From IMG/VR virus record IMGVR_UViG_3300001344_000016, positions 1-27,854 of that record: DNA of 27,854 bases. One strand, given 5' to 3'. Of this stretch, positions 19,560 through 27,854 are shown piece by piece. The DNA is from a virus. The number at the start of each line of letters is the position of its first letter. Position 1 is the stretch's first letter. Below the pieces are notes generated by a model. It was not told the origin of the DNA. It ran no database searches and was given only the letters and a program-made list of their open reading frames with translations. The position numbers were made by a program, and so were the translations under genes.

Positions 19560-20045
19560 TTACAAATGCTGTATATCTTCAGGGTCCAAAATAGTCGCAA
19601 GTATCTCGTCATCATTGAGAATACGAACTTCTCCCCCATCGATCTGAAGGCGCGAACCAGCATAACGGGCAAATAATACCCACTGCTTTTCCGCGCACCA
19701 CGGGCCGTCAGGAAATTTATCTCGGTCTTTGTAGGCAAGAGGACCGACTTTTAGGACGTAGCCGACCTGCGTGGATATCTGACTTTTCTCTTGGACTTCG
19801 CTGGGTATAAAAATACCTCCGGCAGTCTTAGCCCTGCCTTGATAAGGCAAGATGAGAACACGCCATCCAGTTGGGGCGGGCATTCTTTCCAGAAGGCTTG
19901 CGTCTAAAGCCTCTGGATTTAAACGGGGATTTTCGACGTAAGCATCCGCAAGACTAGGTTTTTCCTTGTCTTCGGAAGTTTTTGCTATAGCGGCTACACC
20001 CTCGGCGGCGGCCGACAAATCAATTTTTGCTGACTGTTCAGTCAT
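19560..20045 (-). CDS. GroES-like (Cpn10) co-chaperonin
   Basis: 161 aa. Residues 60-152 match the Cpn10 fold: PTGWRVLILPYQGRAKTAGG, IFIPSEVQEK, a TQVGYVLKVGPLAY strand, then WVLFARYAGSRLQIDGGEVR and ILNDDEILATI. The mobile-loop element GGIFIPSE around residues 76-83 corresponds to the GroEL-binding GGIVL part of GroES. A 55-residue disordered, Ala/Glu-rich N-terminal extension is extra compared with bacterial GroES (about 97 aa). The ribosome site is AGGAG 7 nt before the ATG, and the gene overlaps the preceding gene by 8 bp. Placed immediately before scaffold and capsid, it likely replaces host GroES in capsid folding, as T4 gp31 does. Cellular partner: the host GroEL in the cytoplasm. Confidence 0.88.
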   Translation of the reverse strand: MTEQSAKIDLSAAAEGVAAIAKTSEDKEKPSLADAYVENPRLNPEALDASLLERMPAPTGWRVLILPYQGRAKTAGGIFIPSEVQEKSQISTQVGYVLKVGPLAYKDRDKFPDGPWCAEKQWVLFARYAGSRLQIDGGEVRILNDDEILATILDPEDIQHL

Positions 20046-26044: not shown

Positions 26045-27508
26045 CTAGTAATACATTTGCACTCTAGCAGAGTTTTCTTCATCTTCCCAGTCATCTGTTG
26101 GTAATTGTACAAAATTACCTTGTCTATAGCGCATAAGGGCCTGTGTCATACTATCTACCAAGTCATCATGCTCCCCATTCGGGAACGCCGCAACCTCTTC
26201 AATTAACTCCTCCGCCCACATCTCGTCCGGAGCCCAAACCATACCAGCCTCAAACAAAGGCGCTATACTATGCGCCCGAGTTACCTTGTCATTACCACGA
26301 CTTGGCGTAAAATTCACCACCGGAATGCCCATGTTCCGCAACTCCTGCGTCAAAGGCAAACCACTTGCCTTCGCCTCAATAATTACAGTGTCAGGTTCCC
26401 AAAACTGATAACTTTCCAAAGCCTCCCCCTTTAACTCCGGAAAATCCCAACGCCCCTTCTTAACATCCAACAAAATTAAATTAGGCCCCGAACCACCCTC
26501 ATTTGGATAAAATACACCCCACGTCGTAATCGCAGAATAATCCGCAGTTTCGCGCTTAGAAAAAGCAGTATCATAACTTTGTATCACATATTCTAGCTGG
26601 GGGACCCGCTCCTGATCCCAAACGCGCCACCACTCGCGCTTAATAATCGCATTCTCCTCGCCCGTAGGATTCTGCTGATACTGCGCATTCCACTTGCTCG
26701 GAGGAATAGACGACTTAACCGCGGTCAAATCCTCCAAACTCCAATACTCCGGCCAACAAGAAGTCCCGTCCTCAAAAATAGCAGGTAACTCAACAACCTC
26801 CCATTGATCCGCAGACCCGTCCTTCGCTTGTGCCCGCAACAACTGTCCCGTCATATCCTTCTCAGACCACCTAGTCTGAACCAGAACTATGCTACCTCCC
26901 GGCTGTAAACGCTGTCGAGGACCACCCGTATACCAATCCCAAGCATCGTCAAAACCAGTGTTGCTCATCGCAGTCTGCTCCGAGTGCGGATCGTCAATAA
27001 TAATTAAATCACCACCACGACCCGCTAAATTCGAACCAACACCAACCGCGTAATACATCCCTCCACTGCTCGTGTCCCACCGACCAGAGGCCTTACTGTC
27101 CGAAGCCAAGTTCACACCCGGAAATACATCCTTGAAATCATCGCTCTCAATCAAGTTCTTCGTCTTACGGCCAAAGTTAACCGCCAACTCAGTCGTGTGT
27201 GTCGCCTGAATGATCTTCATTTTCGGATTACGGCCCATCATCCAAGCAGGAAACAAATAAGATGCAAACTCACTCTTCGTGTGCCGCGGTGCCATGTTGA
27301 TGATTAAACGCTTTAGGTCACCATTTGCGACCCTTTCCAACTTTTCGGCAATGATCCTATGATGACGGCCCGCGATAAAGTCAGGCCAAACAGTTTTAAC
27401 AAAAACTAAAAAATTATTTTGGCACTCTTCATTCTTCATGATCTGCGCCAAGCGCAACTCAAGCTTAAGCTTTTTGTCTTCTAACATGGAGTTTTGGGCT
27501 ACATTCAC
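26045..27508 (-). CDS. terL: Terminase large subunit
   Basis: 487 aa. ATPase half: a Walker-A-like PRHTKS (residues 74-79), Walker B LIIIDDP (168-174) and the SIVLVQTRWSEKDMTG (206-221) motif typical of this terminase group. Nuclease half: D313 in YDTAF, E378 in IIEAK and the HDD at 448-450 provide the RNase H-fold acidic metal site. It packages concatemeric DNA into the prohead through the portal, cutting at genome ends. The start used is GTG at 27508; ATG at 27487 is the alternative, with no clear ribosome site for either. No small terminase gene is recognised within the window. It is the first gene after the promoter and parS site. Confidence 0.95.
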   Translation of the reverse strand: MNVAQNSMLEDKKLKLELRLAQIMKNEECQNNFLVFVKTVWPDFIAGRHHRIIAEKLERVANGDLKRLIINMAPRHTKSEFASYLFPAWMMGRNPKMKIIQATHTTELAVNFGRKTKNLIESDDFKDVFPGVNLASDSKASGRWDTSSGGMYYAVGVGSNLAGRGGDLIIIDDPHSEQTAMSNTGFDDAWDWYTGGPRQRLQPGGSIVLVQTRWSEKDMTGQLLRAQAKDGSADQWEVVELPAIFEDGTSCWPEYWSLEDLTAVKSSIPPSKWNAQYQQNPTGEENAIIKREWWRVWDQERVPQLEYVIQSYDTAFSKRETADYSAITTWGVFYPNEGGSGPNLILLDVKKGRWDFPELKGEALESYQFWEPDTVIIEAKASGLPLTQELRNMGIPVVNFTPSRGNDKVTRAHSIAPLFEAGMVWAPDEMWAEELIEEVAAFPNGEHDDLVDSMTQALMRYRQGNFVQLPTDDWEDEENSARVQMYY

Positions 27509-27609
27509 GGGGGACCCTATCTAACTTTTGGTACGCAGTTCACGGCCAATGTTTCACGTGAAACATATGCGATATTAAGGGCTATTATAGGACAGTTAAG
27601 TCTCGTTGG
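27509..27609 (-). promoter_or_regulatory. Sigma70-type promoter for the terminase/late operon
   Basis: On the minus strand TTTCCA (complement of 27607-27612) and a perfect TATAAT (complement of 27584-27589) stand 17 nt apart. The predicted start of transcription is near 27577, and the parS site (27550-27565) falls just downstream of it, before the TerL start. The leader to GTG at 27508 is about 70 nt. Strength of the -10 box supports a host-RNA-polymerase promoter. Confidence 0.7.
27550..27565. other. parS centromere-like site (ParB-binding consensus)
   Basis: The 16 bases TGTTTCACGTGAAACA are a perfect palindrome and identical to the consensus parS bound by chromosomal ParB (Spo0J) in most bacteria. 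The palindrome extends by one pair on each side (27549-27566) to 18 bp. It is 41 bp upstream of the TerL start and just inside the transcribed leader of its promoter. No ParA or ParB gene is in the window, so an orphan site is indicated. What binds it here is inference. Confidence 0.9.
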
Positions 27610-27612
27610 AAA

Positions 27613-27771
27613 TAACTAATGATTATTTGTGAGAAACATGGCCCTAGCTCTCGGTACGCAGACCCTGATATGTCGATTCTGGTGCGGGATTTTGGCGCGA
27701 AAACCGTGGATTTTGCCCCGATATCCGGGGGACCCGGGCGAATTGCCGGGGATCGTGGGCCGCGGTCCGGG
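27613..27771. other. Non-coding GC-rich region with hairpins, beyond the promoter
   Basis: No gene with support on either strand; a short plus-strand frame here (70 codons) is made of the repeat and looks non-coding. From about 27670 the base composition becomes very GC-rich, unlike the rest. A hairpin CCCCG-ATATC-CGGGG lies at 27716-27730. The 9-mer GGTACGCAG at 27530-27538 recurs at 27653-27661, and GGGGGACCC at 27509-27517 recurs within the GC-rich part. It looks like a genome-end, packaging or origin-type region. Confidence 0.5.
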
Positions 27772-27854
27772 GGCCAGCTGCTCGCCGGAAGTTGGTGAAA
27801 AGGTGGCCAGCTGCTCGCCGGAAGTTGGGAAAAGTTGGTGAAAAGGTGGCCAGC
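27772..27854. repeat. Tandem repeat at the right edge (33-bp unit)
   Basis: Unit 1 is 27772-27804 (33 bp), beginning GGCCAGCTGCTCGCCGGAAG. Unit 2, 27805-27847, is the same sequence with a 10-bp insertion (43 bp). A third unit begins at 27848 and is cut by the window edge. The array may continue; it could be iteron-like, a packaging-site repeat, or an assembly end. Confidence 0.85.

Follow-up and report, generated by a model that had tools for sequence, protein, structure and literature searches.

A chromosomal-type parS site is conserved near the terminase gene in several phage families and is probably a loading site for host ParB

The genome of Bacillus phage phi29 (EU771092) has four TGTTTCACGTGGAACA sites, and the effect of the host protein Spo0J on this phage is said to have been tied by Meijer to parS sites on its DNA. 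In the account of Meijer 2005 given in PMC9437464 host Spo0J steers the phi29 genome into the spores, and entrapment of phi29 in spores is also described in PMC9429907. For chromosomal sites, TGTTCCACGTGGAACA (the TCC form) is the sequence of parS2 and parS3 of P. aeruginosa, and parAB in combination with parS2 confers stability on an unstable plasmid (PMC4368675). The consensus parS was preferred over the Noc site by 17 tested ParB proteins from diverse bacteria (PMC7383237).

The site that we discuss is in the window, by which we mean the whole 27,854-nt stretch of viral DNA that was analysed. It is a perfect 16-bp palindrome, TGTTTCACGTGAAACA, at 27550..27565 (no strand assigned), which fits the chromosomal-type pattern TGTTYCACGTGRAACA, is a recognition sequence of host ParB/Spo0J and is conserved in relatives. 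It is the single perfect copy in the window, with no second match even at up to 3 mismatches, and since shuffled versions of the window give just 0.14 matches at that threshold the perfect match is far beyond chance. The earlier note on this DNA had claimed a perfect chromosomal parS beyond chance, in a non-coding region before the terminase gene, and both parts of the claim hold, as the site is in a non-coding stretch 41 nt upstream of the start codon of terL. This gene, for the large terminase subunit, is on the minus strand at 26045..27508 (487 aa; PHROG 38, E 5.6e-112) and starts with GTG in the window and with ATG in close relatives.

Family A is a set of 80 IMG/VR contigs retrieved by TerL alone, blind to parS. 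Counting the window, 68 of the 79 contigs with a scorable leader have a match to the pattern within 300 nt upstream of terL, mostly at 43-108 nt, as looked for in the earlier note, and on the family A tree the presence or absence of the leader site needs 3 state changes. The nearest relative (L122) is a separate contig with TerL 100% identical and parS at the same offset. The right end of the contig, 289 nt beyond the site, falls in G+C-rich non-coding direct repeats (27704..27854, no strand assigned) upstream of the terL leader, and one might suspect that bacterial DNA was fused to a phage contig there, or that the site is due to chance. We regard the likelihood of either as negligible. The leader sites in this set, which was chosen blind to parS, show that the site is not an accident or misassembly of a single contig, and the misassembled bacterial right end that the earlier note had held in reserve is ruled out by the identical site and flanks in many separate contigs. 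Chance is ruled out by the shuffles, by scrambled-palindrome searches and by control palindromes with counts close to zero.

Many family A leaders have two sites 23-25 bp apart, one with TTC/GAA and one with TCC/GGA, in either order. The change from TTC..GAA to TCC..GGA is symmetric and preserves the palindrome, and is thus compensatory. When 34 distinct leaders are aligned, with the parS pattern itself as anchor, the site is fixed except for Y/R and the flanking columns mostly have 0.1-0.8 bits. The outer T..A, which was left free in the test, is present in 96 of 96 family A sites, and also in 63 of 63 and 100 of 101 sites in families C and D, which are described below. Leader parS is absent from 11 of the 79 close relatives, and the leaders without it retain the rest of the leader. 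In L177 and L190 the leader site is gone and TGTTCCACGTGGAACA is found in the coding frame of a gene 2.9 kb downstream. On sequence comparison the window parS is a real, selected site, and the selection and palindrome-preserving variation seen in its relatives are as for a chromosomal-type parS.

With regard to the rest of the leader, a promoter-like TTTCCA-17-TATAAT is predicted on the minus strand at 27584..27612, just upstream of parS, and a terL transcript started there would carry parS in its 5' leader. There was 1 promoter-like match in the terL leader against 0.4 expected, and the AT-rich block around it is conserved among leaders. The element AGGGTCCCCC, at 27509..27518 on the minus strand, is directly before the terL start codon, and as the palindrome-like AGGGNCCCC(T/C) it is kept in family A leaders (L122-L200), also in those without parS. 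We also observed that 32 of the 80 related contigs terminate within 1 kb upstream of terL, a possible sign of repeats, of a packaging site or of the end of the genome, and repeats can explain it. GC skew, looked at for a replication origin, tracks gene strand and was uninformative.

The earlier note had stated that no ParB or ParA gene accompanies the site and had pointed to the missing part of the genome as a place to look. There are no parA or parB genes in the window, which is a genome fragment, and neither ParB_N nor HTH_ParB nor ParA (AAA_31) was found in seven long relatives (31-56 kb) and four reference phages, which cover more of the genome. PF02195 and PF13614 have no match in the same 11, which thus do not belong with the phage-plasmids that carry ParABS. 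ParB_N is absent from 24 further long contigs of families B-D, and among 50 other parS-bearing viral contigs only 3 have a ParB_N match. As several of the relative records are fragments this is not complete proof of absence, although some contigs, at 52-62 kb, come close in length to the reference phages (57-61 kb).

Families B, C and D come from three further TerL searches of 80 contigs each, in which retrieval again ignored parS. The TerL queries were taken from parS-bearing contigs and the fractions are therefore no unbiased census, with parS in 9 of 80 contigs in family B (which is of low G+C), 49 of 80 in C and 38 of 80 in D. For 300 control palindromes of the same composition the average in these families was 0 to 0.01. 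The site is thus widespread in several phage families and is not the curiosity of one phage that the earlier note had made of it. Given the 11 family A relatives and the many members of B-D that have no site in the available sequence, parS must be dispensable or host-dependent.

In whole-record scans the parS sites are near terL with few exceptions, and cluster within about 5 kb of it. Family D has 100 sites in 38 contigs, as arrays of 2-5 that are usually 0.3-1.9 kb upstream of terL, with terS on the far side where this was checked. In family C parS lies in frame within a large gene with a transglycosylase domain, at a distance of about 1.9-2.0 kb downstream from the terL start. Near-zero synonymous variation in sequences chosen by the pattern is partly circular, and the fair version is a peptide-first search, in which the V[SP]R[EG]T peptides of long family C frames are encoded by exactly the parS codons in 55 of 58 cases. 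This argues that selection acts on the DNA, and the intragenic copies of family C and the displaced copies of L177 and L190 argue that parS acts as a DNA site with a role beyond that of a terL operator. At L055 (4730), L414 and other family C loci the gene with the in-frame parS is very large and just after terL, with the codons fixed.

The identical 16-mer is present in 100 of 142 alphaproteobacterial genomes, with 0 for a reversed-pattern control, and most of the genomes sampled have 1-3 exact parS sites. Alphaproteobacteria were taken as a candidate host class on the ground that a single contig from a related phage is binned with a Maricaulis MAG. Assignment of a host from MAG contigs was tried and found to be unreliable, as there are three such contigs only and they are from different phyla.

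Searches of virus and plasmid collections extend the distribution further. In IMG/VR there are at least 120 contigs with parS and at least 120 with the TCC form, against 5 for a scrambled palindrome. A double-parS query of INPHARED gave 272 phage records, not all with exact 16-mers, and the scrambled palindrome gave 0. The INPHARED matches are mainly phages of Microbacterium, Listeria, Bacillus, Arthrobacter and Gordonia, and none of 60 records sampled evenly along the ranking is a phage of Escherichia, Klebsiella or Salmonella, genera not known to have a chromosomal ParB. Some short 'Listeria phage' records, with accessions beginning OR846 or OR848, have several parS matches and may be host chromosome contigs. 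In many isolate phages of Gram-positive hosts (Gordonia, Microbacterium, Lactobacillus and Arthrobacter) there are parS-like sites that are sometimes inside genes annotated as HTH DNA-binding, and a 6.2-kb inovirus-like genome (L598, PQ006097.1) has six perfect parS sites (704, 740, 3041, 3583, 4380 and 5921) and no annotated parB. A marine example from a laboratory host is DSS3P8, which infects Ruegeria pomeroyi DSS-3 and has a perfect parS at position 841. Among PLSDB plasmids parS is in only 23 records. We found no published report of parS in these phages in the open-access literature.

The comparisons establish a real site that is selected at the DNA level, is a palindrome with compensatory change, lies near terL and is an orphan. 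From its sequence we think that the 16-mer is probably a functional orphan parS of chromosomal type, on which host ParB would be loaded in a phage that has no ParA or ParB, and most likely the phage in this way borrows a chromosome-segregation protein of its host. That host ParB would bind the phage parS is the part of which we are most confident, and it is very probable. In the mechanism that we propose, host ParB would bind the palindrome, close as a CTP clamp and slide onto the adjoining phage DNA, as in known ParB biochemistry, and the phage genome would gain a partition complex on which ParA, polar anchors and SMC of the host could act. Of the possible uses the likeliest, on the model of phi29 and Spo0J in sporulating Bacillus, is that the unintegrated genome of a virulent phage would be positioned and co-segregated with the host chromosome during delayed lysis in a slow or starved aquatic cell. 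The role in segregation or positioning is tentative, somewhat short of an even chance in our judgement, and a point against segregation alone is that it would not call for clustering near terL. Sequence by itself does not discriminate between plasmid-like segregation, positioning, condensation and titration.

Other explanations have been considered, and some draw on the same observations. Host ParB bound at parS could repress terL and the late genes until it is diluted by phage replication, for which it can be said that the promoter-like sequence ends 18 nt upstream of parS, that in almost every family A leader parS separates the AT-rich promoter block from the start codon, and that P. aeruginosa ParB represses promoters beside parS3 and parS4 (PMC5521831). 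However the family C site is inside a gene well downstream of the terL start, the family D arrays are mostly some distance upstream, the L177 and L190 site is in another gene, and leaders that have lost parS are otherwise intact. We consider an operator role unlikely, and we set aside a pure terL operator as a general explanation, since it is weakened by the sites that are intragenic, 2-5 kb off or 2 kb downstream of the terL start. The proposal in the earlier note that an orphan site recruits host ParB is thus sustained by the conservation, the compensatory changes, the lack of phage ParAB, the presence of the 16-mer in the host class sampled and the precedent of phi29, while its option of an operator is weakened, as a pure terL operator, by the displaced sites. 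There is a similarly small likelihood that parS aids packaging or condensation, with ParB and SMC loaded between terS and terL to organise concatemers and promote the initiation of packaging. The nearness to terL leaves room for this. Wherever a profile was used to check for terS, the family A and D sites are between terS and terL, as is the one-mismatch site of the pelagiphage HTVC027P, and ParB-parS recruits SMC in several bacteria (PMC7022226), but the sites of family C are downstream of terL, and phi29 and an inovirus carry sites with no such terminase arrangement.

Position also bears on the suggestion that the sites are decoys, by which multiplying phage genomes would titrate ParB away from the host, so that its segregation or SMC loading is disturbed. 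With 1-5 strong sites per phage genome, against the 1-3 exact sites of most host-class genomes sampled, the phage sites would reach a majority as the phage replicates, and some titration of ParB would follow anyway from phage genome copy number. However sites meant for titration could be anywhere in the genome, yet these keep to the terL region, and many genomes have one site only, and we doubt that this is what the sites are for. It is highly improbable that the palindrome merely resembles parS and is bound by some other host or phage protein. Most of the phage genes are unannotated and ParB binding is here deduced from the DNA, which leaves some room for another binder, but known parS sites are matched at each of the 16 positions and in the Y/R change that is tolerated, no HTH_ParB-like protein was found in the phages examined, and unrelated phages carry the same site.

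Loading of host ParB on an orphan parS suggests that phages with no integrase or partition genes can use the centromere system of the host. This, if true, would explain in concrete mechanistic terms how carrier states and delayed lysis arise among aquatic bacteria that grow slowly, and a role in packaging or condensation would instead add a new use to those of ParB. The 16-mer is also a simple genome marker for finding such phages. It is possible, though we put it forward tentatively, that orphan host-type centromeres are a general strategy of virulent phages, many of them unrelated and some from abundant podovirus-like families of aquatic habitats, in which host ParB, with ParA or SMC, would act near the packaging genes in carrier-state inheritance or in organisation of concatemers, and of which entrapment of phi29 in spores would be a special case.

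With regard to known systems, the chromosomal parS sites of Caulobacter, Bacillus and P. aeruginosa have the same 16 bp and, like the phage sites, come in groups of a few within about 1-2 kb, whereas the phage sites are without parAB, beside terL or inside genes, and not near oriC. The phage-plasmids P1 and N15 and mycobacteriophage RedRock likewise have a phage-borne centromere, but encode their own ParA and ParB with their own parS, in contrast to the host-type site, with no parAB found, of the phages discussed here. The likeness is greater with phi29, which is virulent, has no annotated ParB and has several host-type parS sites, some inside or at the ends of genes; a host-type parS on the phage genome, and no phage ParB in the long relatives, are what we find also. 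The orphan parS of phi29 type was thus known already, and what is new is its presence in podovirus-like phages from marine and other aquatic sources, its unusual placement and its breadth. Our phages differ from phi29 in belonging to another phage group with other hosts (marine and probably proteobacterial) and in having the site linked to terL, and the phi29 context is not directly transferable, since spore formation is not known in the likely marine host. The HTVC023P-type pelagiphages (HTVC027P and HTVC023P) are relatives by TerL, which is 55-64% identical, and share core genes (GroES, portal and capsid) and a similar gene order with GroES. In the window the phage-encoded GroES co-chaperonin is at 19560-20045 in the structural gene region, as in phages of this type. 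HTVC027P (L201, 16412), a cultured Pelagibacter phage, has CGTTTCACGTGAAACA, with one mismatch, in the terS-terL intergenic region, whereas the window phage, at 48% G+C against 35% in the HTVC023P type, has a perfect site, and has it in the terL leader.
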